IMG/VR virus record: IMGVR_UViG_3300037891_001110
Location: 1-38,802 of that record
Reading direction: 5' to 3' (one strand)
Source of the DNA: a virus
Length of the DNA stretch: 38,802 nt
In this document: positions 8,400-31,832 of the stretch, one piece after another
Numbering within the stretch: position 1 is the stretch's first letter
Layout: every line of letters starts with the position of its first letter
Notes under the pieces: model-generated
Databases searched by the model: none
The model's input: only the letters and a program-made list of their open reading frames with translations
Told to the model about the DNA's origin: nothing
Position numbers and translations under genes: made by a program

Positions 8400-8885
8400 A
8401 TGTCTGAGTATATTGATGACGAAAACACAACATTCGGTACAGATAAAATTTATATCAGACGAAATAAAACTGAAGGAAAAGGTGTTTTTGCTAAAGAAGA
8501 TATTAAAACTCATGATCTAATAGAACGATTCCCTTTGATCCCTCTTCAATACAGGACATTATATCAAGGAGACAATTCTTTATTGAGGCATGCTATCGTT
8601 AGAGATGATTGCCCATGCGAAGAGTGTAAAAAACATGGGTCTTCTATGTATATAGCACAAGGATATGCCTCTGCTTATACCTATGCAGATGATAATCGAA
8701 TCAATGCAGAATATAAAATTACTTACGAAAAATATTATGGTTTAGTTTTAGCAGTGAAAGACATTAAGAAAGATCAAGAAATTATTGTTCCTGCTATGCA
8801 ATCATATCATTACAAAAATTTTGTATTACCACAATTGGAATTTAATCAATTTAGAGAAGAACAGAATAATGAAATTAGAACTTGA
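8400..8885 (+). CDS. SET-domain protein
   Basis: The 161-residue protein is a compact SET domain as found in phages and bacteria. The N-terminal part reads IYIRRNKTEGKGVFAKEDI, typical of the first SET strands (GKGVFA). It ends with YYGLVLAVKDIKKDQEI, like the last SET strands before the catalytic tyrosine region. A cysteine pair CPCEEC in the middle may bind zinc. The canonical NH motif is not obvious (DDNRIN instead), so methyltransferase activity is uncertain. The ATG at 8400 is preferred to a GTG at 8388 because GGGAG sits five bases upstream. It overlaps guaC by 17 bases. Confidence 0.78.
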   Translation: MSEYIDDENTTFGTDKIYIRRNKTEGKGVFAKEDIKTHDLIERFPLIPLQYRTLYQGDNSLLRHAIVRDDCPCEECKKHGSSMYIAQGYASAYTYADDNRINAEYKITYEKYYGLVLAVKDIKKDQEIIVPAMQSYHYKNFVLPQLEFNQFREEQNNEIRT

Positions 8886-9903
8886 TATAAAGCTAGACTT
8901 TGACGATGTTTTAATAAAACCTAAGAGATCTAATTTAAATAGCAGATCTCAGGTATCTATTAGTAGGATTTTTAAATTCCCTCATTCTGACAGGGAATTA
9001 AATTGTGTGCCTATTATAGCTGCTAATATGGATACTACAGGTTCTATTGAAATGAACAAAGTATTATCTGGTTTTGATTGCCTAACATGCCTGCATAAAC
9101 ATTATAAGTCAGAAAGGCTGAAAGAACATTTTGGATTTCCTAGACAATATGCATTTTATTCTACAGGAATATCAGAATTTGACATAGAAAAATTAGGATA
9201 TGTATACGATAAATTACAGAAAAAACCTAATCTCTGTATTGATGTAGCCAATGGATACAACGAAAAATTTGTATCAATTATAAAAAGAATAAGAGATTGG
9301 TATCCAGATATTATCATTATGGCAGGTAATGTCGTTACTCCAGAAATGACAGAGGAATTAATATTTCATGGAGGAGTAGATATAGTCAAAATAGGAATAG
9401 GTTCAGGTAGCGTCTGTACCACCAGATTAAAAACAGGCATAGGTTATCCCCAACTTTCTGCCATTATAGAGTGTGCTAATGCTGCTCATAGTGTAGGAGG
9501 TCATATCTGTAGCGATGGAGGATGTACTACTCCAGCAGATGTTTGTAAGGCTTTTTGTGCCAATGCTGATTTTGTTATGTTGGGTGGTATGCTGGCAGGC
9601 ACAGATTGTTGTGAAGGAAATTGGCAATATAATATGAATAGAGAAAAAGAATCTTTACAGTTTTATGGAATGAGCAGCAAGCAAGCTATGGAAAAACATA
9701 GTGGGGGTGTCGCTAATTATCGTACTAGTGAAGGTAAATGTGTGACAATCCCATATAAAGGTAAAACGGAAGATACTATACAGGATATCTTGGGTGGAGT
9801 AAGAAGCTGTTGCACATATATTGGAGCTAAAAACATTAAAGATATGGGTAAAAATACAACATTTATTAAGGTTAACAATACACATAATAGGATATATTCA
9901 TGA
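8869..9903 (+). CDS. guaC: GMP reductase
   Basis: The enzyme reduces GMP to IMP with NADPH, moving guanylate toward adenylate. The product has 344 residues, almost the same as cellular GuaC, and has no CBS domains, which separates it from IMP dehydrogenase. Key segments: FDDVLIKP at the N-terminus; GSGSVCTTR with catalytic Cys183; TGIGYPQLSA, the GMP-reductase version of the flap-side motif; and SDGGCTTPAD and MLGGMLAGTD for phosphate binding. ATG 8869 matches the family start; a longer frame from 8785 would add unrelated residues encoded by the SET gene. A phage guaC in an AT-rich genome may rebalance purine pools (inference). Confidence 0.92.
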   Translation: MKLELDIKLDFDDVLIKPKRSNLNSRSQVSISRIFKFPHSDRELNCVPIIAANMDTTGSIEMNKVLSGFDCLTCLHKHYKSERLKEHFGFPRQYAFYSTGISEFDIEKLGYVYDKLQKKPNLCIDVANGYNEKFVSIIKRIRDWYPDIIIMAGNVVTPEMTEELIFHGGVDIVKIGIGSGSVCTTRLKTGIGYPQLSAIIECANAAHSVGGHICSDGGCTTPADVCKAFCANADFVMLGGMLAGTDCCEGNWQYNMNREKESLQFYGMSSKQAMEKHSGGVANYRTSEGKCVTIPYKGKTEDTIQDILGGVRSCCTYIGAKNIKDMGKNTTFIKVNNTHNRIYS

Positions 9904-11563: not shown

Positions 11564-12250
11564 ATGACTAGACTAATAGCTAAAGTAGACACTCAAATAA
11601 ATTTGGATAATATTCTATATACTCCAAATTTTAATTATAGCAAATCTCCCTATGCTTCCATGGAATTTCCAGAAGTGGGTGGCATAGATATATTTAATAT
11701 TGTAGACAGCCCTCCTAAAAATTCAAGTCAAACGACAAGAAGTGAATTACTGTATCTGCAACAGATTACTACTAATAGAAATAAAGAACAATTAGATTTA
11801 ATATATACTGTTGATGATGATCCCGTATATTTATTTGAAGATATAATCAGTAAGTATAAGCTTGTTTTTCCCAAAGAGTTTTTTATTGCGATGTACTATA
11901 CTTGTGGTATTGCTATCATAGATCATTTAAAATTTTATTATAATAGACCAAGACCTTATCAACTATCAGAACATTATAGTATTACTATAAATAGAATAGT
12001 CACAAAAACACACAAGACCCCAGCGTATCCTAGTGGACACACCATGTACGCAGCTTTGGTTGCAGAGATATTATCTGATAAATATCCAGAACACAGAAAA
12101 GAACTTAATAAGTTAGTTGATTTATGTGGTAAAGCCAGAGAATTGCAAGGAGTACATTATCCTTCTGACAATGAAGCAGCTAAGAAAATCATTAAAACAA
12201 TTTATCCAGAACTTAAAAAATATTATATAGGAGTAGGTCATGAGTTATAA
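11564..12250 (+). CDS. PAP2-superfamily phosphatase, soluble
   Basis: The 228-residue protein carries the three PAP2/haloperoxidase-type phosphatase motifs in order: KFYYNRPRP (motif 1, KX6RP-like), YPSGHTMYAA (motif 2, catalytic-loop histidine) and GKARELQGVHYPSDN (motif 3, nucleophilic histidine). There is no run of membrane helices, unlike lipid phosphatases of this superfamily. It is therefore closer to soluble acid phosphatases. No signal peptide is evident. It lies 6 bases after the previous gene and overlaps the next by 11. Substrate unknown: phosphorylated sugars, nucleotides or polyprenyl phosphates are possible. Confidence 0.88.
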   Translation: MTRLIAKVDTQINLDNILYTPNFNYSKSPYASMEFPEVGGIDIFNIVDSPPKNSSQTTRSELLYLQQITTNRNKEQLDLIYTVDDDPVYLFEDIISKYKLVFPKEFFIAMYYTCGIAIIDHLKFYYNRPRPYQLSEHYSITINRIVTKTHKTPAYPSGHTMYAALVAEILSDKYPEHRKELNKLVDLCGKARELQGVHYPSDNEAAKKIIKTIYPELKKYYIGVGHEL

Positions 12251-16761: not shown

Positions 16762-17220
16762 ATGAAAATTAAAGGATATCAAACTAGTGAGTTTTGGTTT
16801 ACATTAGTAAGCTTTATTATTAGTGGATTATTTTTAGGTGGTGTTATTTTAGAAGCAGACACTAAAGATGATTTAATAAGTGTGTCAACTCATGTAGTTG
16901 AAAGTATAATTCTAATAGGAGGACAATTTGCTCTCTTCGGTAGACATATGGCTAGAAGAAAAAAAGAGAAACAAGAGGATCAACGTGTCAGTAAAGAATT
17001 AGAAGATTATGTCGGGGTTGACAGGATTTATAATAAAATTAGTATAAATACAGCTAATATTGGAGAACTTATTCAACTGCCACATGTAGGTCCTGTAACA
17101 GCACAAAGGATAGTAGATTACAGGAAAGCAAATCTTTTTGAAGATCTAGGTCAATTAAAAAGCATAAATGGCGTCGGTGAATCAAGTTATCAAGATATTG
17201 AACCATACATTGAACTATGA
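16762..17220 (+). CDS. Membrane protein with C-terminal helix-hairpin-helix (ComEA type)
   Basis: The 152-residue protein has two N-terminal membrane segments (about 12-30, LVSFIISGLFLGGVIL, and 45-62, VESIILIGGQFALFG). A basic linker follows (MARRKKEKQE). A clear HhH module ends the protein from about residue 92: ISINTANIGELIQLPHVG, then AQRIVDYRK and LKSINGVGESSYQDI. In ComEA and its relatives this module binds DNA non-specifically. Joining it to a two-helix, holin-like N-terminus is unusual. DNA binding at the membrane is inferred; a host counterpart of DNA uptake is not implied. Confidence 0.8.
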   Translation: MKIKGYQTSEFWFTLVSFIISGLFLGGVILEADTKDDLISVSTHVVESIILIGGQFALFGRHMARRKKEKQEDQRVSKELEDYVGVDRIYNKISINTANIGELIQLPHVGPVTAQRIVDYRKANLFEDLGQLKSINGVGESSYQDIEPYIEL

Positions 17221-17691: not shown

Positions 17692-18072
17692 ATGAATTTA
17701 ACACAGAGTTTTGAAGAGTTTAGTACTGGTTTAGCGCCAATGGATTTGGCTTTATATGCTGGTATAGGTATAATCATATGGGTGTTGTTTAAGGATAAGC
17801 TTAGTCCAGTACAAAAAATTATCAAAGATGTAATTGATAGAGTTAAAAAGAACGCACCATCAGTACCAGAACTACCAAACTTTGTTAGGGAAAAGGTAGA
17901 GTCCGAAGATAATAGCAAGCTATTTTTTGATCTTGTAGTTTCTTGGAAACAAACTAGAGATTTAGCTGAAAAAAGTGGTTGTTCAAAAGCTATAGAAGTA
18001 GCCGATCAAATGTTCCCATATTTAAGTCCTATGGTTTGTAAACCAGAAGAGGAGTCTGAAGATGCAGAATAA
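17692..18072 (+). CDS. Single-pass membrane protein, unknown function
   Basis: The 126-residue product has one membrane segment (about residues 17-34, MDLALYAGIGIIIWVLF) after a short N-terminus. A cytoplasmic helical domain follows with a proline linker (KKNAPSVPELPNF) and an acidic tail (PEEESEDAE). It overlaps the next gene by 11 bases. The topology matches its neighbours, suggesting a membrane-associated complex, but no family is recognised. Confidence 0.6.
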   Translation: MNLTQSFEEFSTGLAPMDLALYAGIGIIIWVLFKDKLSPVQKIIKDVIDRVKKNAPSVPELPNFVREKVESEDNSKLFFDLVVSWKQTRDLAEKSGCSKAIEVADQMFPYLSPMVCKPEEESEDAE

Positions 18073-18565
18073 GCTTTTATTGTCTGTAGGTGCTGTTTTA
18101 GTTGTTCTCGGTATTTTTAAACCCGACTTAGGTAGTATCAGACTACCTGTTAACAATGAACCTGTTTGTTGTGTCGAAAGTTATGTTACGGATGCTCCAG
18201 CGGATACAGAACTATTAGATAAAGCCAGAGCTGTTACGGAGATTGTTAAGGCATCAGATGATTCAACTCGTAAGAGTGACTGCTTAAAATTATCTGCTTT
18301 GTATGCAGACATGGCAACTCTTATAGAATTAGATGATGATAAAATTATTGTTGATACATCTTCTATTAAAGAAGCCAACAGTATAGCAGGTAAAATGTTA
18401 AAATTAAATATTAAAGACAAGTATCCTAATTTAGCAGAAGCGGCTCAAGATTTAGTGACTACTGGTATCGGAGATGATGATATTTTACTTACTGAAGAGT
18501 TAAGAGAAAAATCAGCAGAATCTTTCAGAGCCTTATCATGGGCTTTCTATCAAGGAAGTAAATAA
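18062..18565 (+). CDS. Exported or membrane-anchored protein, unknown function
   Basis: The 167-residue product begins with a hydrophobic stretch (LLLSVGAVLVVLGIF, residues 5-19) that is either a signal anchor or an uncleaved signal. A segment with adjacent cysteines (PVCCVESY) follows, then a helical acidic domain. The neighbouring membrane genes suggest it faces the periplasm or outside. It overlaps the preceding gene by 11 bases and shares one base with the following papain-fold gene. Function not recognised. Confidence 0.6.
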   Translation: MQNKLLLSVGAVLVVLGIFKPDLGSIRLPVNNEPVCCVESYVTDAPADTELLDKARAVTEIVKASDDSTRKSDCLKLSALYADMATLIELDDDKIIVDTSSIKEANSIAGKMLKLNIKDKYPNLAEAAQDLVTTGIGDDDILLTEELREKSAESFRALSWAFYQGSK

Positions 18566-19491
18566 TGCCAAGACTAACACCTGCTCAATTATATAATGAA
18601 TATAGAAAAGGCTTTAGCGGATGTCTTTGGGAACAACATGTATACGATGAATTAATGGAAACATCTAAGTATGCGTATTTTAAAGACGGTGCAAAAAAGA
18701 TTAAGAATAGCGGCAAAGGTCAGTTGTCAACTCCTTTTATGTCTGTACTAAAGTTTGATAAGAACGCATATATTGAACGGCAAACTACAGGAGATTGTGT
18801 CAGTCATGCTACTCGAAACGGATGTGATCTGACAAGAGCAGTAGAAATTGATGTTGAGGGAGATAAAGAAAGCTGGATAGCAAGAGGTGCGACAGAAGCT
18901 ATTTATGGTGCTAGAGGTCATGGTGGACAAGGTATGAGTTGCAGTCGAGCAGCCAAATTCGTTAGCCAAGTTGGTGGCGTTCTCGTTAGAAAGAACTATC
19001 CCGGCGTTGGAGACTTTAGTAAGTATAACGGAAATATGGGTGCTAGATGGGGAAGCAGAGGATTACCAGACAAAGTAATAGATAAAGCCGATGAACATCA
19101 AATAAAAACAGTTTCTTTAGTTAAAACTGTAGAAGAAGCTAGAGACGCACTTGCTAATGGATATGGTTTAAGTGTCTGTAGTAGCTATGGATTTTCTAGT
19201 AAAAGAGATAGTAAGGGATTTGCAAGAAAATCTGGAGGATGGAATCACGCAATGGCTTGGACAGCTTGTGATGACACAGGTAAAGAACCTGCTTTTCTCG
19301 TACAAAATAGTTGGGGTAAATTTAATAGTGGAGGACATCCAGAATGGGGTCCAATTCCAGACGGTTCTTTTTTGATCCATGCAGATGTAGCTGCTGGTAT
19401 GTTAAGACAAAATGGAGCATATGCTTTTAGCGATTTTAACGGGTTTCCACCACAAAAACTACCCGATTATGGTTTTGTAGATTATTTATAA
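18565..19491 (+). CDS. Papain-fold (C1-like) cysteine peptidase
   Basis: The 308-residue protein holds the ordered papain active-site pattern. RQTTGDCVSHATRNG gives Gln73 (oxyanion) and Cys78 (nucleophile). GGWNHAMAWTACDD gives His228. VQNSWGKFNSGGHPEWG gives Asn248 in the family motif QNSWG. There is no signal peptide and no classic inhibitory propeptide, though about 65 residues precede the active site. The gene lies directly before two fibre-like genes, and a second papain-fold gene with lost active-site residues lies at 28531. A virion-associated peptidase, or an adhesin-processing enzyme, is inferred. Confidence 0.85.
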   Translation: MPRLTPAQLYNEYRKGFSGCLWEQHVYDELMETSKYAYFKDGAKKIKNSGKGQLSTPFMSVLKFDKNAYIERQTTGDCVSHATRNGCDLTRAVEIDVEGDKESWIARGATEAIYGARGHGGQGMSCSRAAKFVSQVGGVLVRKNYPGVGDFSKYNGNMGARWGSRGLPDKVIDKADEHQIKTVSLVKTVEEARDALANGYGLSVCSSYGFSSKRDSKGFARKSGGWNHAMAWTACDDTGKEPAFLVQNSWGKFNSGGHPEWGPIPDGSFLIHADVAAGMLRQNGAYAFSDFNGFPPQKLPDYGFVDYL

Positions 19492-19497
19492 TTCGCA

Positions 19498-19509
19498 GGT
19501 GTATTAAAA
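19498..19509 (+). promoter_or_regulatory. Copy of the recurrent intergenic GTGTAT motif
   Basis: GGTGTATTAAAA lies 6 bases after the papain-fold gene stop in a 57-base gap leading to the fibre genes. AAAGGA before ATG 19549 is the ribosome site. Confidence 0.4.
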
Positions 19510-19548
19510 CAACATAAACTCTCTAATGTATTCTATGAAAGGATCATC

Positions 19549-20343
19549 ATGGCAGATCGTAAAATATCGGAATTAGCTGAAGCCGCAAGTGTTGCCAGTG
19601 GGGATGTAATGATAGTAGTTACAGGTGTAGGTGTAGGTGGCTCTACATTAACAACCAAACAGATTCCTTTATCTGGATTAACTAATCATATCGTTAACAT
19701 AGAAGAATTAGTCACACCTAATACGGGTATTTTTCTAGTATCAACACCGTCAGCTACTAATAAAAATAAAATAGAAATTAATACAACTGGTTTAGCCTAT
19801 ACTGATCACACTCATGTAGCAGCAAATATTACTGATTTCGGTAGTGCAGTAAGCGGTTTAGTAGAACAAAATGTTAAATTTCAGTCTGCTGACTTAGTAG
19901 CAGTTGGTAAAACGACTGTAGAAAGTACAGACTTAGTTATTCCTTTATCTGCAAATTGTAAATATCTGTGTGAACTAGGAACAATCATTGTAAATAATGA
20001 AACCAATACAACAATTTCTGGATTTGTAGAAATCACAGGAACTACTAGAGTTAATAATCCTACTCAAATGTATGGCACTTGGAATTCTCTAGGAACAAAT
20101 GCTAGTTCACAAGGGGTGGTTACTAATACTATTAATCCTATTAGTAGATCTGGTGCTTTAACAGACAGTTTAAATTCAACACTTAATAATCAAGCTGTCA
20201 CCTTAGTAAATACTTTTATGATCGAAACAACTAATAATGAATCAGATACTGCCACCTTTATGTTTGCTCATGATAGTATAGACGCAGCAACGAATGCGGT
20301 ATTGAAGAAAGGTAGCTGGTTCAAAGCTGAAAAAGTTATTTAA
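19549..20343 (+). CDS. Short tail-fibre-like protein
   Basis: The 264-residue product opens with a motif common at the N-terminus of tail appendage proteins (KISELAEAASVASGDVMIVV ... TKQIPLSGL). The following giant protein shares this motif (KITQLSLSPYALDKDLIVVV). It is rich in Thr, Asn and Val and is probably beta-structured. A YTDHTHVAANITDFGSAV segment near residue 85, typical of phage fibre and collar proteins, lies in the middle. The C-terminal half may form a trimeric head. It probably forms part of the same host-binding structure as the giant fibre, starting 10 bases upstream of it. Confidence 0.75.
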   Translation: MADRKISELAEAASVASGDVMIVVTGVGVGGSTLTTKQIPLSGLTNHIVNIEELVTPNTGIFLVSTPSATNKNKIEINTTGLAYTDHTHVAANITDFGSAVSGLVEQNVKFQSADLVAVGKTTVESTDLVIPLSANCKYLCELGTIIVNNETNTTISGFVEITGTTRVNNPTQMYGTWNSLGTNASSQGVVTNTINPISRSGALTDSLNSTLNNQAVTLVNTFMIETTNNESDTATFMFAHDSIDAATNAVLKKGSWFKAEKVI

Positions 20344-20353
20344 AGGATAAACT

Positions 20354-23300
20354 ATGGCTGATAGTAAAATAACGCAACTGTCGCTATCGCCATATGCGTT
20401 AGACAAAGACCTTATAGTTGTAGTAACAGGACACCTTGAAGAAGGTGCTTTTCCTCGCAACACTAAAATGCCACTTTCTTATATTAGAAGATATGTTGTA
20501 AGACTTAATCTTTTAACTAATCCACAGTCAGGCATTAGTACTTTTTATAATAGTGGATTAAATATATTAACTATTAATCATACTCCGATTACTGGTAACT
20601 TAATGAGGTATGATTATGCTGATACTCATCCTCACGACCAAACTATTAGTACTACGGGCTTAAACTCTATTCAAGGTAATAATATAGAGGTAGAATTTAG
20701 CAAACTCTCTCCCGCTGCTACAAGCATGCACGAAAGAAATGGTTCGTGGTCAGAGGGTTTTAATAAAGAAGCAAATTTAGAAGACCCCTACTATTCTGGA
20801 ATCATATCTGTAACAGGTGTTAATGCTGTTACAGAAAATAATATTATCAAAGATTATGAAAGTGTATGGCCATATAGTGGTCATTACTATAATAGTGGAC
20901 TAAACACTATTGGGGGCAATAGTATTGATATTGCTTTTCTTGAAACAGACGATGCTGCTAATGCTATGTCTACAAGAGGTGGTGGGTGGCACGATGGTTT
21001 TGCTAAAAATAATTTAGAAGGCAGATACTGGAGTGGCATAATATCTTTAACAGGCTTGAATGCTTACAGTGGTGCTCCTTATGGAAATCTCATGAGGGTA
21101 GATATTGATGTCGATCAATGGCCTTATAGTGGAGTGTTATCTACTACAGGACTTAATTCTATTGGAGGTAATTTAGTTGATATACAGTTTGAATCTACTA
21201 GCGAAGCTGCTTCTTGGATGCATAGTAAAAATGGAGGTTGGCATCATACTTTTAATAAGAACAATAACTTAGGCAACAAATACCATTCTGGTATTATTTC
21301 AATTACTGGTTTAAATGCGTATAGCGGGGCTCCCTATGGAAACTTAATGAGAGTAGACTTCGACGTAGACCAATGGCCGTACAGTGGAGTCATTTCACAG
21401 ACAGGTCTTAATGCTATTGTCGGTAATAATATGGACATAGTGTTCAAAGCTACTAGCGAAGCTGCTGTAGGTATGCATGCTAGAGATGGTGGATGGCATG
21501 ATGAGTTTAGTAAAACTAGTAATCTAGGCAATAAATATCATTCAGGTATAATATCTACTACAGGATTGAATGCTTACAGTGGTGCTCCTTACGGCAATCT
21601 AATGAGAGTAGATTTTGATGTAGATGAGTGGCCTTATAGCGGAGTAATTTCGCAGACAGGCTTGAATTCTATCATGGGAAATAATATAGATATACAATTT
21701 CAAGCAACCAGCGAAGCTGCACAATGGATGAACAGCAAAGATGGTGGTTGGCATGATAACTTTAGTAAAACAAACAACTTAGGTAATAAATATCACTCGG
21801 GCATTATCTCGATGACAGGTCTTAATGCCTATAGTGGTGCTCCCTATGGGAACTTAATGAGGGTTGATTTTGATGTTGATCAGTGGCCATACAGCGGAGT
21901 AATTTCGCAGACAGGTATTAATGCTATTGTTGGTAATAATATGGACATAGTTTTTCAATCCACCAGCGAAGCTGCTGTAGGTATGCATGACAGAGATGGC
22001 GGGTGGCATGATGATTTCAGTAAAACTAATAATCTAGGAAATAAGTATCATTCAGGCATTATTTCGATGACAGGTCTTAATGCTTATAGCGGAGCGCCTT
22101 ATGGTAATTTAATGCGAGTGGACTTTGATGTAGATCAGTGGCCTTACAGTGGAGTCATTTCGCAGACAGGCTTAAACTCCATTATGGGGAACAATATAGA
22201 TATACAATTCCAATCAACCAGCGAAGCTGCTCAAGGTATGCATGCCAGAGATGGAGGTTGGCATGATGGATTTAGTAAAACAAACAACTTAGGTAATAAA
22301 TATCATTCGGGTATTATTTCCATAACAGGTCTTAATGCTTACAGTGGAGCACCTTATGGAAACTTAATGAGGGTTGACTTTGATGTTGACCAATGGCCAT
22401 ACAGTGGAGTAATTTCTCAAACGGGTTTAAACTCTATAGTTGGTAATAATATGGATATTGTTTTTCAGGCTACAAGCGAAGCTGCTGTAGGTATGGACGA
22501 CAGAAGAGGTGCATGGGATAGAAAATTTACCACAAATCATTTAGGTAATAAATATCACTCAGGTATTGTATCTACTACTGGTTTAAATGTATATGGTGGA
22601 CATCCGTATGGTAACTTAATGAGAGTAGATTTTGATGTTGATCAATGGCCGTATAGTGGTGTCATTTCGCAGACAGGACTTAACGTTATTCAGGGTAACC
22701 TAATAGATGTAAGATTTAAATCCAATTCCCTAGCTGCTCAAGGAATGCATAGCAGAAATGGTAATTGGTTGGAAGGTTTTAATAAAAGTACTCACTTAGG
22801 CGAAAGATACCATTCTGGTATTATCTCTGTTACTGGTTTAAATGCATATAGTGGAGCACCTTACGGAAATCTTATAAGAGTGGACTTTGACGTTAATCAG
22901 TGGCCTTACAGTGGTGTTATATCACAGACAGGTCTTAATGTTATTCGTGGTAATAATATAGATATTCAAGTTCAATCAACCAGCGAAGCTGCTACAGCTA
23001 TGCATAGTAGAAATGCTAGTTGGTTAAATACATTTAATAAAAATAATCATTTAGGTAATAAATATCATTCTGGTATTATCTCTATTACAGGTGTCAACGC
23101 ACGAACTGAAAATTTGTTAGTTAAAGAATATGAAGATGTATGGCCATATACAGGAGTATATTATAATACTGGGTTAAATGCTACGGCTGGTAATCATGTA
23201 GAGATTCAATTCTCTACCGATACTGATGCTGATTTTCATTATAAAAAACCCAATGGTACTAGCAGGATGGGAGGTAAATATCAAAGTGGTATTATCTCTG

Positions 23301-26300
23301 TAACTGGACTCAATGTAGTTCAAACCACTGGTAATCTAATTGAAAATTATGTACAACATGAAGTTTGGCCTCGTCGTAATGTTTTACATACAGTTAAATT
23401 AAATGCTTATCACGGTCATCCGTGGGGTAATAATGTTAGAGTGGATTTAGACAGTCAATGGCCTTATAGTGGTATCATATCACAAACTGGATTAAATGTT
23501 CTTCGTGGTAATCTTATTGATATTCAATTTGATTCAAGTTCAAACGCTGCTACTAAAATGCATAGTTCTATTGGTGCTTGGGACAATGATTTTAACAAGT
23601 ATAATCATTTAGGTAGTCCATATAATTCTGGTATCATTTCTGTAACAGGGCTTAATGTGGGAGATGATGGAAACAGAACAAGTTATACCATAGAAAATGA
23701 TTGGCCTTATAAATACAATATCGATGCTACTGGACTTAATATTGTTAGAGGTGATGATTTTAGCAATGCTCTTAATGGTATAGGTTATAATATTGAACCA
23801 GATGATCATCATCGTTATGATTTATTTTCTTTAAATAAAATTAAACATGCGACTAATAGTCAAACCTTGACTGTTGACAATTCTAGTAGAAGAACAGAAC
23901 ATTTTCTAGATGATAAAGCTTTTATTAGTTATTGTAATGTAAAAAATATGAGACCTTCTGATAATTTAGTTTTATTAGCAGAATTAGAGCTTAGGTTAAA
24001 TGATAATTGTATTACTGTTACAGTGCCATCAGTGGCTGACTTAAATTCCACTAATTCTCAAAAAGAAACTGAAATAGGTGAGAGTGCGTTTTCGGAAGTG
24101 ACTCTAGGAGGAATAACAGATGCAGCTAATAGTGATTACGGTTTATGGGATCCTTGGCAATTAGAAATTGATAATTCAAGTTTTCCTTTAAAACTAGCTG
24201 TTAGTATAAGTGGAAATAGCGTCACTCTTATGGACGATGATCCAATTGAATTTACAACAAATATTGATACAATTTATAGTAGTGATAAGGGTCAAGCTAA
24301 TCAAGTAAACGGTAATAGTAATTTGAATCTAGGTAGGGATGAATTGATATATGAAAAACATAGAACCAGTAAGGCATTAGGTATATCTAGATCAGCTGGA
24401 CTTAGTATAGATTTTGGTGTTAGTCCTAGCGAACATGGACACAGCATTACTGGAACATTTGATTTTGATCATCAACAAGGTATAACTAATTTAATTAATC
24501 CATCAGCTTCAGGAATTACTCTATCTTTAGATCCTGCTAGTAATCCATATACTTTAGGTTCCACCCAAGCTATGACACTTAAAGCTATTGTGACACCTTC
24601 TATAAATTCATCTACTTATAATATAAATGGTTGTATTGGTATTAAATATAGTGTAACAAATACAAAATATAAAAGACAATACAGAAAACATTTAGGAACA
24701 GCAACTGCTGACGGTACAGATCAATTCGGAGCAGAAATTTTAATAGGTGATCAAGTATATAGATATTTTACATCCACAGCCAGAACAGCAGAGACAAAAT
24801 GTGTTATTTCTAATCATAGGTATTTAAAATGTGAAAATATGGAACAGGCACCAACAATTACTTTTACTACACAGCCTACAAATCAAACATCAGAAGCTGG
24901 AGCTGCAACTTTCACAGCGGTTGCAAAAATAAATGATTATACTGATCCTCTTTACCAATGGCAAGAAGCTCCTGCTGGAACCACAAACTTTACTAACATG
25001 TCAGGAAAGAATAATTCTACTTTAAGTCTAACTGGTATGCAACACCCAGCAGACAATGGTAAGAGATACAGAGTTACAGTAATGGCTTATGATGGACTTA
25101 CAACCTCCACAAGTAATTATGCTACGCTTACCACATCACCACCTACTATTACTGTTATTACTCACCCAACAGATCAAATTATAGCAACGAACGGAACAGC
25201 CTCATTCTATTCGAATGCTACTGCGAATGTTGGTGGAACCACTATTGATAAACAATGGCAGGTTAGTACAAATGATGGAGCAAGTTACAGCGACATATCT
25301 GGTGCTACATCTAATACTGTAAATCTAACAGGATTAACAAGTTCGGATCATAATAATCTATATAGATGTAAATTTAGTTCTTCAGGATTTAGTACAGTCT
25401 ACAGTAATTCAGCAGAGCTATTCTTTGTATCAACAGGTAGTGGTGGTGGTGGTATAGAACTTGCTATTGCCATTAATGGTCATCCTACAAGTCAAACAAT
25501 TAGTAGAGGAATTGCAGTTTGGACTGCTTCGGCTACTCTAAGTGGTAGTAGTTCATTCGAATTATATTATATATGGGAAAAAAGCACTAACGGAGGAACA
25601 AGTTACTCTCAAGTGCGAGCAGGTGTTGATCTGACTAGTATCAGTAATGATCTGTCTGTTAGTTACTCTAACGGTAAGTACGGTCCAAGTCCATCATCGA
25701 CTGACGACACAGGTGGTCTAACGTATGATCCTTATGATCAATCATTATGGAGAATTAAAGTTAGGATAAATGGATTTGGTAATGACGTAGAAGTTATAAG
25801 TAATTCTGCTACTCTCACAGTAAAAGAAATTGATATTACAAGTCAGCCTGACGGAGCTAAAATTAATGGTAAGACTATGATAACTCGTAATTACGCACGA
25901 AACTACATTCCTACCAATAACGGCTCTGCAACACTATCGGTAACAGCTGTTGCTCGTAATAGTTCAGCTACATTGCATTATCAATGGCAAGAATCTTCTA
26001 ACGGTTATACTTGGACAGATATATCTGGAAAAACTAGCGCAACATTATCTCTTGCAGGGTTAACACAAAATACCACAGAAAATGAGTATAGATGCTTAGT
26101 AGATGACGCTGCATTAAGTGGTAGTGACAGTACAGGTAGTATGGTAAGACAAGCTAGTTCACAGGCTAGGATTACTACTTCTACCTTTATCTCAGCTTCA
26201 AACACCAACATAGATGATAATACAAGCTTTGCTACGGTTGACCGAGATTCAACAGGCACAGTTAGTGAAACAATGTTTATCACATTCTGTTATGATCTAA

Positions 26301-26548
26301 CAGATGAAGTTGGTCATGGTGTATCGCTTGATGCACAAGCTGATGGAACTGCGACTATTGAGTTCGGTCAGCCACCAGCGTTGACTTCAGTTGCTTCATT
26401 CTCTGCAACCCATCCTAATCAAGTGACTAACAACAAAAATATCGGAGCATCTAACAGTACAGCATATTCTGCTGGTGATGTTATCAATCTTAAAGTTACT
26501 GGTCAAGTCAGTCAGTATCTAGCTAGACTTAATATTCCATTACCTTAA
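20354..26548 (+). CDS. Giant repeat fibre with Ig-like domains
   Basis: The 2064-residue protein is the largest in the window. Order: an N-terminal attachment motif shared with the gene before it (residues 1-50); about a dozen tandem repeats of usually 85 residues (about 146-1135), each with two SGxxSxTGLN half-units; a non-repeated region (about 1136-1495); four Ig-like domains, recognisable by the YQWQ or WQ strand and the YRC or YR strand (about 1500-1600, 1600-1695, 1700-1815 and 1820-1940); and a beta-rich C-terminal cap (about 1945-2064). It lacks a signal peptide. A long tail fibre or virion surface fibre is the best reading. It is followed by small membrane genes and a second papain-fold protein. 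Confidence 0.88.
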   Translation: MADSKITQLSLSPYALDKDLIVVVTGHLEEGAFPRNTKMPLSYIRRYVVRLNLLTNPQSGISTFYNSGLNILTINHTPITGNLMRYDYADTHPHDQTISTTGLNSIQGNNIEVEFSKLSPAATSMHERNGSWSEGFNKEANLEDPYYSGIISVTGVNAVTENNIIKDYESVWPYSGHYYNSGLNTIGGNSIDIAFLETDDAANAMSTRGGGWHDGFAKNNLEGRYWSGIISLTGLNAYSGAPYGNLMRVDIDVDQWPYSGVLSTTGLNSIGGNLVDIQFESTSEAASWMHSKNGGWHHTFNKNNNLGNKYHSGIISITGLNAYSGAPYGNLMRVDFDVDQWPYSGVISQTGLNAIVGNNMDIVFKATSEAAVGMHARDGGWHDEFSKTSNLGNKYHSGIISTTGLNAYSGAPYGNLMRVDFDVDEWPYSGVISQTGLNSIMGNNIDIQFQATSEAAQWMNSKDGGWHDNFSKTNNLGNKYHSGIISMTGLNAYSGAPYGNLMRVDFDVDQWPYSGVISQTGINAIVGNNMDIVFQSTSEAAVGMHDRDGGWHDDFSKTNNLGNKYHSGIISMTGLNAYSGAPYGNLMRVDFDVDQWPYSGVISQTGLNSIMGNNIDIQFQSTSEAAQGMHARDGGWHDGFSKTNNLGNKYHSGIISITGLNAYSGAPYGNLMRVDFDVDQWPYSGVISQTGLNSIVGNNMDIVFQATSEAAVGMDDRRGAWDRKFTTNHLGNKYHSGIVSTTGLNVYGGHPYGNLMRVDFDVDQWPYSGVISQTGLNVIQGNLIDVRFKSNSLAAQGMHSRNGNWLEGFNKSTHLGERYHSGIISVTGLNAYSGAPYGNLIRVDFDVNQWPYSGVISQTGLNVIRGNNIDIQVQSTSEAATAMHSRNASWLNTFNKNNHLGNKYHSGIISITGVNARTENLLVKEYEDVWPYTGVYYNTGLNATAGNHVEIQFSTDTDADFHYKKPNGTSRMGGKYQSGIISVTGLNVVQTTGNLIENYVQHEVWPRRNVLHTVKLNAYHGHPWGNNVRVDLDSQWPYSGIISQTGLNVLRGNLIDIQFDSSSNAATKMHSSIGAWDNDFNKYNHLGSPYNSGIISVTGLNVGDDGNRTSYTIENDWPYKYNIDATGLNIVRGDDFSNALNGIGYNIEPDDHHRYDLFSLNKIKHATNSQTLTVDNSSRRTEHFLDDKAFISYCNVKNMRPSDNLVLLAELELRLNDNCITVTVPSVADLNSTNSQKETEIGESAFSEVTLGGITDAANSDYGLWDPWQLEIDNSSFPLKLAVSISGNSVTLMDDDPIEFTTNIDTIYSSDKGQANQVNGNSNLNLGRDELIYEKHRTSKALGISRSAGLSIDFGVSPSEHGHSITGTFDFDHQQGITNLINPSASGITLSLDPASNPYTLGSTQAMTLKAIVTPSINSSTYNINGCIGIKYSVTNTKYKRQYRKHLGTATADGTDQFGAEILIGDQVYRYFTSTARTAETKCVISNHRYLKCENMEQAPTITFTTQPTNQTSEAGAATFTAVAKINDYTDPLYQWQEAPAGTTNFTNMSGKNNSTLSLTGMQHPADNGKRYRVTVMAYDGLTTSTSNYATLTTSPPTITVITHPTDQIIATNGTASFYSNATANVGGTTIDKQWQVSTNDGASYSDISGATSNTVNLTGLTSSDHNNLYRCKFSSSGFSTVYSNSAELFFVSTGSGGGGIELAIAINGHPTSQTISRGIAVWTASATLSGSSSFELYYIWEKSTNGGTSYSQVRAGVDLTSISNDLSVSYSNGKYGPSPSSTDDTGGLTYDPYDQSLWRIKVRINGFGNDVEVISNSATLTVKEIDITSQPDGAKINGKTMITRNYARNYIPTNNGSATLSVTAVARNSSATLHYQWQESSNGYTWTDISGKTSATLSLAGLTQNTTENEYRCLVDDAALSGSDSTGSMVRQASSQARITTSTFISASNTNIDDNTSFATVDRDSTGTVSETMFITFCYDLTDEVGHGVSLDAQADGTATIEFGQPPALTSVASFSATHPNQVTNNKNIGASNSTAYSAGDVINLKVTGQVSQYLARLNIPLP
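20789..23758 (+). repeat. Tandem 255-bp repeat array inside the giant fibre gene
   Basis: Unit starts (codon for the Tyr of the YxSGIIS motif) are at 20789, 21026, 21281, 21536, 21791, 22046, 22301, 22553, 22808, 23063, 23279 and 23621. Most are exactly 255 bases apart, one 252. The first unit and the last two are irregular, and a partial relative lies upstream near 20540. Each unit encodes YHSGIIS-TGLNAYSGAPYG, then VDFDVDQWPYSG, then VISQTGLN, TSEAA and GGWHD blocks. The protein is far better conserved than the DNA: synonymous codons differ widely between units. Units from 21281 to 22552 alternate between two types (see findings). Confidence 0.95.
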
Positions 26549-26552
26549 TTAT

Positions 26553-26564
26553 AGTGTATATAAT
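26553..26564 (+). promoter_or_regulatory. Copy of the recurrent intergenic GTGTAT motif
   Basis: AGTGTATATAAT lies 4 bases after the giant fibre stop and 14 bases before the start codon of the next small gene, whose ribosome site is GGAGG. Confidence 0.4.
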
Positions 26565-26578
26565 ATTGGAGGTAAACT

Positions 26579-26737
26579 ATGAGATTTTTAGATAAGATTG
26601 CATTAAATAGATTAATTGCTATTATTACTAGCTTTATTCTAAGTATTATTAAAATTTTTAGTCCTAACAAAGATGTGGTATCTCCTCCTAAAAAGAGAAG
26701 ACCATTAAAAGACTTACTAGATAAATGGATTAAGTAA
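26579..26737 (+). CDS. Small membrane protein (52 residues)
   Basis: The ATG at 26579 is preceded by TTGGAGG, an excellent ribosome site. The frame runs to TAA at 26735-26737. The product has a hydrophobic helix (about residues 11-27, RLIAIITSFILSIIKIF) and a basic tail (PPKKRRPLKDLL). It is too short for automatic listing but well supported by its ribosome site, its place right after the fibre gene, and the 2-base distance to the next gene. Function unknown. Confidence 0.7.
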   Translation: MRFLDKIALNRLIAIITSFILSIIKIFSPNKDVVSPPKKRRPLKDLLDKWIK

Positions 26738-26739
26738 AC

Positions 26740-26973
26740 ATGATTAAATTTATTTTCGGTACACTACTGATAGGTTCTTTAGTTTTTGCTGCAACACCTG
26801 AATATAGTACAACAGCCGTTGTTACACTTGCTGGTGGTATTGTAAAAGCATCTCAGAAGGATGATGTAGTAGAAAAATATAAACGTAAAGACTGTCCTGT
26901 TTGTAAAGGCAAGGGATGGTATTTGAGTGGTGATGGCATAGCCAAAATTAATTGTCAATATTGTGAGCCTTAA
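26740..26973 (+). CDS. Small secreted protein with DnaJ-like zinc motif
   Basis: The 77-residue product starts with a signal peptide (MIKFIFGTLLIGSLVFAATP, probable cleavage after FAA). A second small hydrophobic stretch follows. It ends in CPVCKGKGW ... CQYC, the CxxCxGxG plus CxxC layout of the DnaJ zinc ribbon. In DnaJ this element binds unfolded protein or acts in thiol exchange. A secreted single-unit version is unusual. Whether it binds metal or forms disulfides outside the cytoplasm is open. It lies 2 bases after the previous small gene. Confidence 0.7.
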   Translation: MIKFIFGTLLIGSLVFAATPEYSTTAVVTLAGGIVKASQKDDVVEKYKRKDCPVCKGKGWYLSGDGIAKINCQYCEP

Positions 26974-26993
26974 TTAGAAAGGTAGTTGGTTAT

Positions 26994-27374
26994 ATGAGTA
27001 AACCTAATGAAAAATTAGAAAAAATTGCATTAGATATTCTGGGAACGCAAGAGCTGCCAAAAGAAAAATTCGGTAGTGTCATCATGATTATTATGATGAT
27101 AGCTATTTTGGTGAATTGTATCCGAGTCATACAAGAATGCAATAAAAATAAAGAAGATGAAGATCAGCTTTCTATGTATAAAAAACACATTAAAGAAATA
27201 TGTGAGTATAGAGGTTGGTTTCCTAAAATGAAATTGCGTAAAATGATTAGACAAGAATTAAAACCCGAAGACTATAGAACATATGGTAGACCATTAGTTC
27301 GTGCTATCTTCGATAAAGGAGCCCGTATCACGGATGATGAAGTTTTAACCCTGATGGAGATAACTAAGAAATGA
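26994..27374 (+). CDS. Single-pass membrane protein, unknown function
   Basis: The 126-residue product has a methionine- and isoleucine-rich membrane helix (about residues 27-43, VIMIIMMIAILVNCI). A basic soluble domain follows (GWFPKMKLRKMIRQELKPEDYRTYG), ending with a helix. No family can be named. Its stop overlaps the start of the next gene by 4 bases (ATGA), and the set 26579-27622 reads as four small membrane or secreted proteins made together. Confidence 0.65.
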   Translation: MSKPNEKLEKIALDILGTQELPKEKFGSVIMIIMMIAILVNCIRVIQECNKNKEDEDQLSMYKKHIKEICEYRGWFPKMKLRKMIRQELKPEDYRTYGRPLVRAIFDKGARITDDEVLTLMEITKK

Positions 27375-27622
27375 TTAGTTTAATAATATGGTGTGTATAC
27401 GGTATATTTGTCGGTTCTATTGCTAAAGCTATTATACCGGGAGAAGAAAACTTTGGTTTCTTTAAAACCATTGCTCTCGGTGTGGCAGGATCTTATATGG
27501 GCGGTGCTGTACTGTATCTGTTAGGTTCTTATAATACAGTAGAACCTTCAGGTATTTTTATGGGCGTGGCAGGTGCGGCGCTTAGTATAGTCTTATATAA
27601 TAAACTAACGGATGGCAAATAA
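27371..27622 (+). CDS. Transglycosylase-associated (GlsB/YeaQ/YmgE) family membrane protein
   Basis: The 83-residue product has three hydrophobic helices and the glycine-rich signature of this family: IWCVYGIFVGSIAKAIIPG at the start, then TIALGVAGSYMGGAVLYLLG, and a last helix GVAGAALSIVLYN. Cellular members are small stress-related inner-membrane proteins with no proven enzyme activity. The name comes from an early association only. A phage copy is uncommon but not unknown. It overlaps the next gene by 11 bases. Confidence 0.8.
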   Translation: MISLIIWCVYGIFVGSIAKAIIPGEENFGFFKTIALGVAGSYMGGAVLYLLGSYNTVEPSGIFMGVAGAALSIVLYNKLTDGK

Positions 27623-28538
27623 ATCAGCAGTTATTCTCTGGTTATATCATACAGATCTAGCAGATGAATTTGTGGAATTATTAAAACCTCATGAAAAATA
27701 TGTAGATATATTTCTAGGGGTATGTAAAGACCATGACAATCATCAGGTTGAATCTTTATTTAAGGATAATTTCTCTAATGTATATCTGGAATACCTAAAC
27801 AATGGAGGTACAGATATTTTACCTACTTTAAATTTATTAGAAAAATGCACTGATTATCCACATCTATTCAAGTTACATTCTAAAAAAAATAATTGGGGTA
27901 TGAATAAACAAGTAAATTGGAGAGTTCTACTGTGCAATGACATCCTATATAAAGACAACTTTAAGTGGACATTAGACAGATTGAAACAAGATCATATAGG
28001 TATAGTAGCTTCTAACTGTATGATTATGAAAAATAATGAATATACTAATACTAATAAAATAGCTGAGATAGTAGACATCGTTGGTTTAGATTATAGTCGG
28101 TTAAGAATAAAAAGTTTTATTGGTGGTAATATTTTTGCTATAAAAACTAAATTATTATTACCATTTCTTAACCAGCCTAAATTAAAAAAGTTATTATCTC
28201 AAGAAATTGGCTTGATAAAAGATGACGATGGAGGAACTTACGTGCATAGTATGGAAAGACTTTTTGGATATATGGCAGAGTATTACGGTAAAACTATATG
28301 CGGAGCACCATGTAAAACTCAAATTATACTTAATCCTAGAATAAAAACACGTAGACTTCACCTTATAAAACTTTATAATAATGAATGTTACGTCCAAGAA
28401 AACCCTGATATCTATGGTAGTATATTGGATGATAATGATACATACATCAAAATCAGTTGGAAAAATCAAGATGTATCAACGATAAGGCTATATAAAAAAC
28501 TTAACAATAAATATTTAATAAACTACGATTATGCTTAG
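27612..28538 (+). CDS. RgpF-like rhamnan/polysaccharide biosynthesis protein
   Basis: The 308-residue protein resembles the rhamnan synthesis F (RgpF-like) group. It has AVILWLYHTDLADEFVELL at the N-terminus, then LFKLHSKKNNWGMNKQVNWR (family pattern KLHxKK...WR) near residues 84-103, and IGGNIFAIKTKLLLPF near 182-197. Members take part in rhamnose-glucose polysaccharide assembly. Rhamnose-pathway genes rmlB and rmlC are present at the end of the window, which agrees with this. It overlaps the small membrane gene before it by 11 bases and the papain-fold gene after it by 8. Confidence 0.7.
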   Translation: MANKSAVILWLYHTDLADEFVELLKPHEKYVDIFLGVCKDHDNHQVESLFKDNFSNVYLEYLNNGGTDILPTLNLLEKCTDYPHLFKLHSKKNNWGMNKQVNWRVLLCNDILYKDNFKWTLDRLKQDHIGIVASNCMIMKNNEYTNTNKIAEIVDIVGLDYSRLRIKSFIGGNIFAIKTKLLLPFLNQPKLKKLLSQEIGLIKDDDGGTYVHSMERLFGYMAEYYGKTICGAPCKTQIILNPRIKTRRLHLIKLYNNECYVQENPDIYGSILDDNDTYIKISWKNQDVSTIRLYKKLNNKYLINYDYA

Positions 28539-30321
28539 TCCAGAAGAATTATATAAAGAATACAGTACCAATCCCTGTATAGGTGGATTATCTAGTCCAT
28601 TCACCCAGATAACTGCATCAGAAGTATATAATCAATTAGGTGGGAATGATATGGGTGCAGGAACACCTATGAATTTATTACGTATAGTTAATTTCCTTAA
28701 ATTAGTTAAATATCCTTGTGTAGAAAATGCTCCAGGATATAGTGATATTGTAGATACAGGTGATAATAAATTGTCTCCTACTTTTAAATTTTTACAGAAA
28801 CTAGACATTGAAGCATATAAAGAACGTCAACCTAGTGTTCGAGCAGGCACTTCATATGCAGTCAGAAATTGTTGTGATTTAAGCAGGGCTTGTCATCATA
28901 CAGCAGCAGGGACAACTGATAAGTGGATTCATCGAATGGCTACAGAATATTTAGAATATTTTGCTCATAGATCATTACCTGACTGTTTACTAATGTGTGG
29001 TCCTGATTTAATAGATAAAGTAGCAGCTATGTTTTATCGAGGACCGGGAGGAAAGGTAGGAGCAGGAGAACCTATTGATGCTTCCGGTGCTAGTAGCGAT
29101 GATCCAGGTGGAGATATACTAGCTAATTTTGTAGGTGACCCAGGTATGCTTTGTTTTCCTCTTACTTCTGGAGGTAGAGGAGCGCCGGGTGCTGCTCATG
29201 GATGTTGGACTCCATCACCTAATATTACGGGTGAAGAACCTAAATGCTATGCTTTTGATCAATGTCCAACAGACCCTAATACTGGAGCAGTTACTAATCC
29301 TGATCATCCTTGTTGCAAACAAGGTAGCATATATCATATAAATGAATGTCAAAATGATGGTAAGAAATCTGTTGTGGATAGAGATATGGATTTTTCATAT
29401 TGGATTAAATCCGATGATGGACGTTTTGATGGAACTATAAATAACGGTAGACTAGGAGAATTATTAAAACATGTAGGTATACTTGAACGTAAAATATATC
29501 ATGGATATGCAGACTTTACTAACCAATGTGATGGTACTGCACCTCCAATTAGTCTTGAGGATATATTCTTTTCACATTTTCAGGAAGTTAATGATTTTAA
29601 TTATGTTACAAACTCATCAACTGATACTGATTCTGTTGAAATAGAACGAGCTAAAACAGTGTCTATGATTATAAAAGCATCAGTACAGGCTAGCTCTAGT
29701 AGTATAACCATAAATACTGATACTGATTGGATGTTAAAAAGAGTTAGAGATTTAGTATACAATGGTTATGGAGTAATGCTTTTAAGTAACACAGGTTTTA
29801 ATGACACTAGAGATTCTACAGGAGTCTCCTATCCTGATCGCGTATTTTATCATACATATAATATTATTGGATATGATGATACTAAAATTGATTATCCTGA
29901 ATGTGTTTATGTACTACAACTACCATTTGGAGAATGGAATAGTGGAGGTCATCCTTCATGGGGTCCACTGCCTACGGGTAGTTTTTTAGTCACAGAAAGT
30001 CATCTTAAATGCTTAATAGATTATTATCCTACAAGCGATCATTATGGTTGTAAAAGAGAAGTGTGTATTAATACAGTGGCTAATGACTGCACTGATCCGT
30101 CTGTTGCAGACCAATACAAGGGCTGTGGCTCCGATTATGAAGGCAGATGCAGTCCTTACTACTGTACTAAACAGCAACGAGCTTGTGGGTTGTTACTTAC
30201 TATGTCTTTAAATGATGGTTTTCCAGCTCAGGATCTTAATTACGAACAGTTTTATCCTATATCTCATTGGAAAGAACAATTCAAAGAAAAAACCCTCTAT
30301 TATAAACCACCTCCAGCATAA
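28531..30321 (+). CDS. Catalytically degenerate papain-fold protein with Cys-rich inserts
   Basis: The 596-residue protein is a diverged paralog of the papain-fold peptidase at 18565. Matching landmarks are AYKERQ ... NCCDLSRA (AYIERQ ... NGCDLTRA in the active copy), FYHTYNIIGYDD (WNHAMAWTACDD), and GEWNSGGHPSWGPLPTGSFLV (GKFNSGGHPEWGPIPDGSFLI). At the nucleophile site Gly replaces Cys, and QLPFG replaces QNSWG, so the asparagine is lost; the histidine stays. Compared with the 308-residue copy it has long inserts, including a cysteine-rich stretch (about residues 205-275). A second cysteine-rich tail follows (about 508-560). It is probably a structural or binding protein, not a protease. Confidence 0.8.
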   Translation: MLSPEELYKEYSTNPCIGGLSSPFTQITASEVYNQLGGNDMGAGTPMNLLRIVNFLKLVKYPCVENAPGYSDIVDTGDNKLSPTFKFLQKLDIEAYKERQPSVRAGTSYAVRNCCDLSRACHHTAAGTTDKWIHRMATEYLEYFAHRSLPDCLLMCGPDLIDKVAAMFYRGPGGKVGAGEPIDASGASSDDPGGDILANFVGDPGMLCFPLTSGGRGAPGAAHGCWTPSPNITGEEPKCYAFDQCPTDPNTGAVTNPDHPCCKQGSIYHINECQNDGKKSVVDRDMDFSYWIKSDDGRFDGTINNGRLGELLKHVGILERKIYHGYADFTNQCDGTAPPISLEDIFFSHFQEVNDFNYVTNSSTDTDSVEIERAKTVSMIIKASVQASSSSITINTDTDWMLKRVRDLVYNGYGVMLLSNTGFNDTRDSTGVSYPDRVFYHTYNIIGYDDTKIDYPECVYVLQLPFGEWNSGGHPSWGPLPTGSFLVTESHLKCLIDYYPTSDHYGCKREVCINTVANDCTDPSVADQYKGCGSDYEGRCSPYYCTKQQRACGLLLTMSLNDGFPAQDLNYEQFYPISHWKEQFKEKTLYYKPPPA

Positions 30322-30332
30322 GGATGTAGATA

Positions 30333-31832
30333 ATGGCAAATTATGATATAGACTTATGTAATCTGGAATATTTGTTTGAGGATGTAACAGGAAGAATTCC
30401 TGCTAAAATTGTAGCACAAGTTGGTCAAGACTACAATATAATTTTATCTAATCCTGGTCAATCGTCTACTATAGCTACTTTAAGTATGCAAAGTCAATGT
30501 ATATCTGATATTGGGAAACTTAATATGGTTTTCCCTATTGAAACAGAAAACTCTCCCCTTTTTGGAATAAATATTGGTCTAAATACTTCAATTGGTGAAA
30601 TAGTTTGTAACCCTGCAGCACTTATAAATATAGCATCAAATAGTTTTCCGTTCTCTACATGCCATCTTGGGAAAATATCAAGTTCAAAACCTATAAGTAT
30701 AACTATGTCTCTTGATGCAAATACAACTATTGGTCAGATTGATTCTACTGATTTATCTTTAACTCAAATAACAGGCAGCATCAATGAGATAAAGCCTGGT
30801 CGAGATGCATCAGAGGTAGATATTAATAACTGTATACTTAGTAATATGAAAATAAATACTAGTGGTATTACAATTCAGAATCGTAGTTTAATTACTCAAT
30901 GTGAATTAATAACTAATATAACAGGAGAATTAGCAGGCTATAGAAGAGACTTCGGTGCTGGGAATAACCCTAAAGACGTTAGCGGCTTTTCAGTAGCCCG
31001 AGAGTTACCAACTATAACCATAGCCAACTCTGTAGTTAAGAATTGTACGGTATCAGGATATAATATAAGCTATAAAAGTCCTGGTAACACTCGTATATTT
31101 GGTACACACCCTGAACCTTTCGATTTAGTGTTTCAATACAAAGAAAATGCATCTATTCAGGATTTTCTAACAGTTGCAGGTAGCTTTCAGGCAGATCCCG
31201 ATTGGAGAGTTGAAAGAGAACAGCATAAGTCAGATAATGTCGACAGCTTTTCAATAACTAAATCATCTTTTACAAATACAGTAAGCATTATAAATTTTAA
31301 TAATATTCTATCATCCTTTGTTAATGTAGGTAGTGTTGGTTTGAGCGACCCTGTGCTACGACAGTCAGGACAACTCATACCAGCTAACCCTGATGCAACA
31401 CCACCAACGGAAGAAAGAATGGTTCCCACTTATCTTAGCGGTGCTCCATCTCTTAACTCTAATATACTTACTGTCGCAAAACAGATAGAACCAACCATAT
31501 ATGATCTTGAACCACCACAGCCTATCAGAACATCTATCTCTTTAAAAGGAATTGATCATAGTCATCAGGACTATAAATCCATAGGTTACTTACATGTTAA
31601 TTCTAATATTCAAGCTGATATTATCAGTCTATCAAAGGTAAGTAATTTAGGTACTATAAATTGTGATCATTTGTCTATAGCGGGTGCTGATGGTGCTCAA
31701 TTTGATAATGAACAAGGAGCAGGAAGTTTTTTAAATTATGGTACTATTAACTATGAAAAAAAACTAGGAACTATTATGAATATGCCCGGAGGAATTGTAA
31801 ATGGAGATAATACTACAGGAATAATAGCATGA
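30333..31832 (+). CDS. Beta-rich fibre-like virion protein
   Basis: The 499-residue protein is rich in Ser, Thr, Ile and Asn and shows many short strand-turn units (ISDIGKLNMVF, NTSIGEIVCNP, NTTIGQIDSTD, SSKPISITMSL). The spacing suggests a beta-helix or similar fibre fold. It has no signal peptide and no enzyme motif. A methionine- and asparagine-rich C-terminal segment with GTINCDH, GTINYEK and GTIMNMP echoes the same rung pattern. It follows the degenerate papain-fold gene by 11 bases and precedes the glycan operon with a 4-base overlap (ATGA). A receptor-binding or tailspike-like protein is inferred. Confidence 0.7.
   Translation: MANYDIDLCNLEYLFEDVTGRIPAKIVAQVGQDYNIILSNPGQSSTIATLSMQSQCISDIGKLNMVFPIETENSPLFGINIGLNTSIGEIVCNPAALINIASNSFPFSTCHLGKISSSKPISITMSLDANTTIGQIDSTDLSLTQITGSINEIKPGRDASEVDINNCILSNMKINTSGITIQNRSLITQCELITNITGELAGYRRDFGAGNNPKDVSGFSVARELPTITIANSVVKNCTVSGYNISYKSPGNTRIFGTHPEPFDLVFQYKENASIQDFLTVAGSFQADPDWRVEREQHKSDNVDSFSITKSSFTNTVSIINFNNILSSFVNVGSVGLSDPVLRQSGQLIPANPDATPPTEERMVPTYLSGAPSLNSNILTVAKQIEPTIYDLEPPQPIRTSISLKGIDHSHQDYKSIGYLHVNSNIQADIISLSKVSNLGTINCDHLSIAGADGAQFDNEQGAGSFLNYGTINYEKKLGTIMNMPGGIVNGDNTTGIIA

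Follow-up and report, generated by a model that had tools for sequence, protein, structure and literature searches.

Introduction

Work on pseudoenzymes is extensive in eukaryotes but much scarcer in phages. The locus described here belongs to a large phage and encodes an intact papain-like enzyme (A) and, downstream of it, a longer paralogue without the catalytic cysteine (B). The Pachyrhizus erosus seed protein (PDB 2b1n) resembles B in being a papain fold that lacks the catalytic Cys (Z 12.4, 3.4 Å over 189 residues), although it is a plant seed protein and only about 9% identical to B. In the weevil midgut, Sl-CathL-CS is a pseudo-cysteine protease found beside an active paralogue, with a proposed non-catalytic binding role (PMC8583781). 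Unlike B, it carries a single Cys-to-Ser change, has not doubled in length and is proposed to bind plant inhibitors (PMC8583781).

Among phages, proteins annotated as "Peptidase C1A" in uncultured Caudovirales (BFVD A0A6J7XQB9 and A0A6J5QDM8, 260–270 aa) are weak structural matches to B (E 0.15–0.3). Xylellain and cathepsin-type C1 peptidases have the fold of the B core (Z 14.9, 3ois) and the catalytic set of A, but they do not match A or B at the sequence level. Searches of the PDB with the A and B families, by sequence and by profile, returned no relatives. The spacing from the oxyanion Gln to the nucleophile Cys is 6 in papain and 5 in A. To our knowledge, the seed protein has neither Cys-rich inserts of B's kind nor a fibre partner, and we know of no dead paralogue paired with a fibre for the two phage C1A proteins.

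Results

Phage Group and Data Sets

The window, i.e., the whole stretch of DNA analysed, comes from a virus record in IMG/VR and is a fragment of 38.8 kb. In that database, 229 stretches encode relatives of A, and three scans found B in 28 contigs besides the window, giving 23 distinct B proteins, so A/B pairs like the one pointed out in the first-pass annotation do exist elsewhere. A tblastn search of the 50,697 phage records of INPHARED gave no match to either protein. Judged by sequence, this is a group of large uncultured phages in which a papain-like enzyme is strictly conserved and a further, dead copy is present in some members.

Since a 231-kb relative (G001) encodes rIIA, rIIB, a PolIII-type polymerase, DnaB, UvsX and ribonucleotide reductase, and the window encodes a sigma-70 region 4 protein, the virus is taken to be a large tailed phage of a bacterium. 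The contractile-sheath family PF04984 was looked for and not found. Five common peptidoglycan-hydrolase families (PF00959, PF01510, PF01464, PF13539 and PF01551) had no match in the window or in eight relatives of 161–231 kb, records that are perhaps incomplete. The window (804–1805) and G001–G008 encode an actin-like member of the Volactin family (PF25216, E 4e-64), which is named from a Haloferax cell-shape protein and exceeded the Pfam cut-off in each of the nine phage records searched. The archaeal host hinted at by this actin and by the missing hydrolases is outweighed by the sigma-70 region 4 protein and the bacterial-type replication genes. The window also carries genes for an IMP dehydrogenase (8785–9903), a subtilisin-like protease (5457–6371) and a PAP2 phosphatase (11564–12250), and G001 encodes a 1102-aa protein (L116:9272–12577) with fn3, Mtd_N (major tropism determinant N-terminal) and YHYH domains.

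Protein A

The features of A in the window are as follows.

18565..19491, plus strand: A, papain-like (C1-type) peptidase, 308 aa, full Gln-Cys-His-Asn set in an intact frame; universal in the phage group
18781..18798, plus strand: oxyanion Gln73 to nucleophile Cys78 (QTTGDC)
19246..19248, plus strand: catalytic His228 (WNHAMA)
19306..19308, plus strand: catalytic Asn248 (QNSWG)

The nucleophile motif of A is QTTGDCVSHATRN and its C-terminal tail is NSGGHPEWGPIPDGSFL. The Gln, Cys, His and Asn are invariant across all 67 non-redundant close members of the family. In a second set, each of 84 loci of related lineages encodes a single A-like protein in which the Cys, His and Asn motifs are present; identity is about 52–55% in the examples aligned. 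A evolves under a dN/dS of 0.008–0.08. The Pfam profile PF00112 scored only 12.6 bits against A (E 0.15), below its cut-off of 20.7 bits, and a papain fold is presumed for A from its homology to B together with the catalytic set.

Some relatives carry inteins in A. One lies directly after QNSWG in L086 (5001–6944) and L087 (9–1952), and another directly after the catalytic His (WAH-C) in L218 (3710–5728), where it splits the His motif. The two inteins differ from each other and both adjoin catalytic motifs. Since inteins prefer functionally critical sites, these positions fit an active enzyme, and A is likely a working peptidase.

Divergent A homologues were found in three contigs (L124, L125 and L126) labelled as SAR202 and Lokiarchaeota MAGs, which are probably phage contigs binned there. 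A more distant papain-like relative of 355 aa with GDC, WAH and NQWG motifs (L231:6344–7408) suggests a wider phage family.

Protein B and Its Altered Active Site

The features of B, as read from alignment and from the predicted model, are listed below.

28531..30321, plus strand: B, predicted papain-fold pseudoenzyme, 596 aa (blastp to A; AlphaFold2 pTM 0.78; VIA-align Z 14.9)
28828..28848, plus strand: Gln100 kept; Ala105-Gly106 where the nucleophile Cys is expected
29155..29460, plus strand: Cys-rich insert 1, residues 209–310, with C225, C239, C245, C261, C262 and C273 conserved in 23/23 B
29851..29853, plus strand: His441, counterpart of the catalytic His, retained in 17/23 B
29920..29922, plus strand: Leu464 replacing the catalytic Asn, which is kept in 14/23 B
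29995..30186, plus strand: Cys-rich insert 2, residues 489–552, with 8 Cys, of which C507, C532, C540 and C545 are invariant

A and B align by blastp in two segments, one of 69.7 bits (E 2e-17, 40% identity over 86 aa) and the other of 50.4 bits (E 3e-11, 40% over 73 aa). The match is beyond chance, since 2000 shuffled versions of B scored at most 27.3 bits against A. The nucleophile motif of B, QPSVRAGTSYAVRN, is one residue longer there than that of A, and Cys78 of A corresponds to Gly106 when counted along the helix or to Ala105 when counted from the Gln, neither being a Cys. QNSWG of A is QLPFG in B, and the C-terminal tail of B is NSGGHPSWGPLPTGSFL. The window B therefore lacks any set of nucleophile Cys or Ser with His and Asn (Ala105/Gly106, His441, Leu464); it is not stripped of every catalytic residue, since His441 and Gln100 are retained. 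As a substitute nucleophile, the nearest cysteines (C114 and C115) were rejected, lying 8 to 9 residues further along the helix.

These results bear out most of what the first-pass annotation had read from the letters. The residues Q73, C78, H228 and N248 of A, with their coordinates and frames, were correct, and so was the view of B as a true paralogue with a shared tail. The loss of the nucleophile to Gly holds by helix count (Ala by Gln count), and QLPFG does stand for QNSWG. An alternative active-site Cys, part of what would have undermined that reading, was considered for the window B and rejected. The doubling in length was also right (596 against 308 aa), as were the two Cys-rich inserts.

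Single-sequence prediction of B gave no usable model (pLDDT 32.5), and a model based on an alignment of 37 B and A relatives, A rows included, was used throughout. With this alignment, AlphaFold2 reached a pTM of 0.78, with pLDDT of at least 90 in the core blocks and low values in the inserts. In Foldseek, the best matches of the model were C1 peptidases (E 0.01–0.1). VIA-align gave Z scores of 12–15, with 14.9 for xylellain (3ois) and 14.7 for pro-Der p 1, and the 50 top listed entries were all papain family C1 peptidases, 2b1n included. On this predicted structure, B keeps the papain fold, as had been presumed from its sequence.

B is rich in cysteine, with 24 residues (4.0%) versus 1.5% in the rest of the window; 6 fall in the insert at 209–310 and 8 in that at 489–552. 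Thirteen positions are invariant in 23/23 B, namely C16, C63 and C121 in addition to the ten insert positions listed above. Twenty B have Cys at both 242 and 274, and the other three (the window, L084 and L229) at neither, a joint absence that is expected of disulfide partners. From this conservation we infer that the conserved cysteines form disulfides; they may instead form a metal site.

Distribution and Order of Loss in the B Family

No member of the B family has Cys, His and Asn together (0/23). The Cys is gone from the nucleophile site in 22/23, and the remaining one, L033, has a Cys at Gln+5 without His and Asn. His is retained in 17 members and Asn in 14. The B proteins form a single clade (support 100/99), and the nine Asn-less members, among them the window B, form one derived clade (100/99) inside which the His losses lie. 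From the tree and this residue distribution, the nucleophile would have been lost on the stem, the Asn once and the His several times. Twelve of the 23 have His, Asn and a Ser at Gln+5, in a clade that also keeps NSWG, and L091 (Gly-Gly) and L229 (Ala-Gly) have kept His and Asn. By helix count, the replaced position in B is Gly or Thr (Ala in L028/L030) and never Ser. B shows a dN/dS of 0.10–0.25 and evolves faster than A; by these sequence estimates, it is under purifying selection.

B was absent from 57 loci in which the sequence runs on for 3 kb or more past the conserved 83-aa gene, and present downstream of that gene in 27 loci. The scan with A, in which loci were not chosen for having B, showed it in about 6 of 63 scoreable loci. 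No second papain was found in any of the 84 related-lineage loci.

Duplication followed by loss of catalysis had been proposed for the pair. Common descent and the loss itself stand, but the event was neither recent nor local: a recent local duplication is ruled out by the single old clade, its long stem and the exchange of the cassette independently of A described below. On the tree, in which the branches are long, B may have branched before or after the split of the two A lineages. The tail GGHPxWGPxPxGSFL common to A and B, replaced by GPKxHGQPxGSFW in L124–L126, favours an origin within the lineage of the window.

Gene C and the B–C Cassette

The remaining features of the locus are the following.

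17692..18565, plus strand: two small proteins (126 and 167 aa) with N-terminal TM-like segments, directly upstream of A; 94 loci each
19549..26548, plus strand: fibre genes of 264 and 2064 aa, separating A from B in the window; variable, not at this position in several relatives
26740..27622, plus strand: conserved trio of small genes (77, 126 and 83 aa) whose products have hydrophobic stretches, N-terminal or central; 95–98 loci
27612..28538, plus strand: glycosyltransferase-like gene (RgpF, PF05045, E 4.4e-15) between the trio and B in this lineage
30333..31832, plus strand: C, a beta-repeat protein immediately following B, called fibre-like from repeats, size variation and position

Also conserved upstream of A is a small protein (16762–17220) whose N-terminal part has a hydrophobic segment and whose C-terminal part is a ComEA-like helix-hairpin-helix domain (PF12836, E 2e-14).

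The papain paralogues were first described as flanking the fibre genes, and B was tied to the giant adhesin-like fibre. The arrangement holds in the window, but not in several relatives: L069, L091 and L094 have no fibre gene between A and B. The giant fibre (20354–26548) is thereby ruled out as the partner of B, and the candidate partner is instead the next gene downstream, C.

The C family has a conserved N-terminal module with conserved Cys and ranges from 359 to over 1300 aa, with NYGxVxGxAxF-type repeats in many members. Pfam gave no match and no recognised domain for C, which is regarded as fibre-like from its repeats, size variation and position alone. The gap between B and C is −8 to +17 bp in the 12 loci measured. 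A C-family match was present in 27/27 B loci of the first set and the N-terminal module in 7/8 additional B loci, for a total of 22/23 distinct B. In B-less loci, the module gave three weak matches only (E 0.002–0.006), none convincing. The C proteins of L028, L030 and L033 form a separate subgroup, tied to the other C by position and not by sequence. B can occur without C, as it does in L229, which branches deepest among the B proteins.

The cassette is placed downstream of the 83-aa gene, the B open frame beginning 4–2985 bp past it. Between L069 and L103, A is 99% identical, B 44% and C 22%, and the B–C pair therefore looks exchanged as a cassette. Starting upstream of A, the DNA of these two loci runs at 86% identity as far as the 83-aa gene; past this gene it aligns only in patches. 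In the other pairs with A at least 99% identical, B is 89–98% identical, leaving L069/L103 as the one clear case of exchange. Rank correlations of divergence were 0.87 for B–C and 0.82 for A–B, so the co-divergence of B and C proves little on its own. The B–C pair has two marks expected of an adhesion module, a fibre-like neighbour (22/23 B) and allele exchange (one cassette break).

Discussion

The explanation we favour, with slightly better than even confidence, is that B is a catalytically dead papain-fold protein that would bind or scaffold C within an exchangeable adhesion cassette. A would be a cysteine peptidase of papain-like type, conserved in a group of large tailed phages and with the cell envelope or virion proteins as its probable target, and may have its role in entry, virion maturation or lysis. 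B would descend from an ancient copy of A in which the nucleophile was lost first, the fold and cleft were kept and Cys-rich inserts were gained. It would work without catalysis, binding or scaffolding the C protein encoded directly after it. The probable roles of B are to seat C, to fold it, to cap it or to contribute a binding surface itself; B and C together would make up an accessory, exchangeable adhesion cassette. On this genomic evidence, the two would form a complex, be located in the virion and take part in host binding. The change from enzyme to binding or structural part envisaged in the first-pass annotation is thus still the best reading, strengthened by the near-exclusive pairing with a fibre-like gene, although not in its tie to the giant fibre.

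Other explanations were weighed against this one. A and B could form an envelope or lysis module outside the virion, with A degrading the envelope next to holin-like proteins and B binding it. In both lineages, A does have small proteins with TM-like segments as neighbours, and the five common peptidoglycan-hydrolase families are absent from the eight relatives of 161–231 kb, but only five families were covered in records that may be incomplete, and the B–C cassette behaves as a swapped adhesion allele. We know of no C1-type peptidase that acts as an endolysin, and a literature search for one found none, so that we regard this module as unlikely. A pseudo-protease regulator, in which B pairs with A or competes for its substrate or inhibitor, has precedents: the Cys-to-Ser cathepsin L of the weevil S. 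levis is proposed to act by interacting with canecystatins (PMC8583781), and a dead deoxyhypusine synthase paralogue activates its enzyme (PMC3663545). The position of the B gene, near A, on the same strand and always downstream, is as a regulator would have it. However, A occurs without B in most relatives (the 57 B-less loci and the 84 related-lineage loci), and it stays 99% identical while B is swapped for a 44% allele, which makes regulation of A quite improbable.

B might also be an enzyme of another kind, e.g., a silicatein-like Ser-His-Asn hydrolase in the members that keep those residues. The twelve proteins with Ser at Gln+5, His and Asn, in a clade where NSWG persists, speak for such an enzyme, but the window B has Ala-Gly with neither Ser nor Asn, L091 and L229 have no Ser despite their His and Asn, and the helix count never places Ser at the replaced position; we consider this very doubtful. 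That B is a decaying duplicate without function is hardly credible. Its catalytic residues are lost and it evolves faster than A, but the dN/dS of 0.10–0.25, the long frames, intact in 28 or more contigs other than the window, and the 13 invariant Cys among 23 members speak for selection and conservation, on which decay was rejected.

Under the favoured explanation, a dead papain-fold partner of C, a broader course of events can be proposed tentatively, at less than even confidence: a papain-like protease would have become a dedicated, disulfide-armoured, non-catalytic adaptor that moves together with a fibre as a single swappable receptor-recognition cassette, with its active parent in place and almost unchanged. 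Many genomes bring together, within a small region, a putatively active enzyme, graded catalytic losses and a candidate non-enzymatic partner, and the order of loss, from nucleophile to Asn to His, can thus be read directly. B is a candidate new component of phage adhesion devices.
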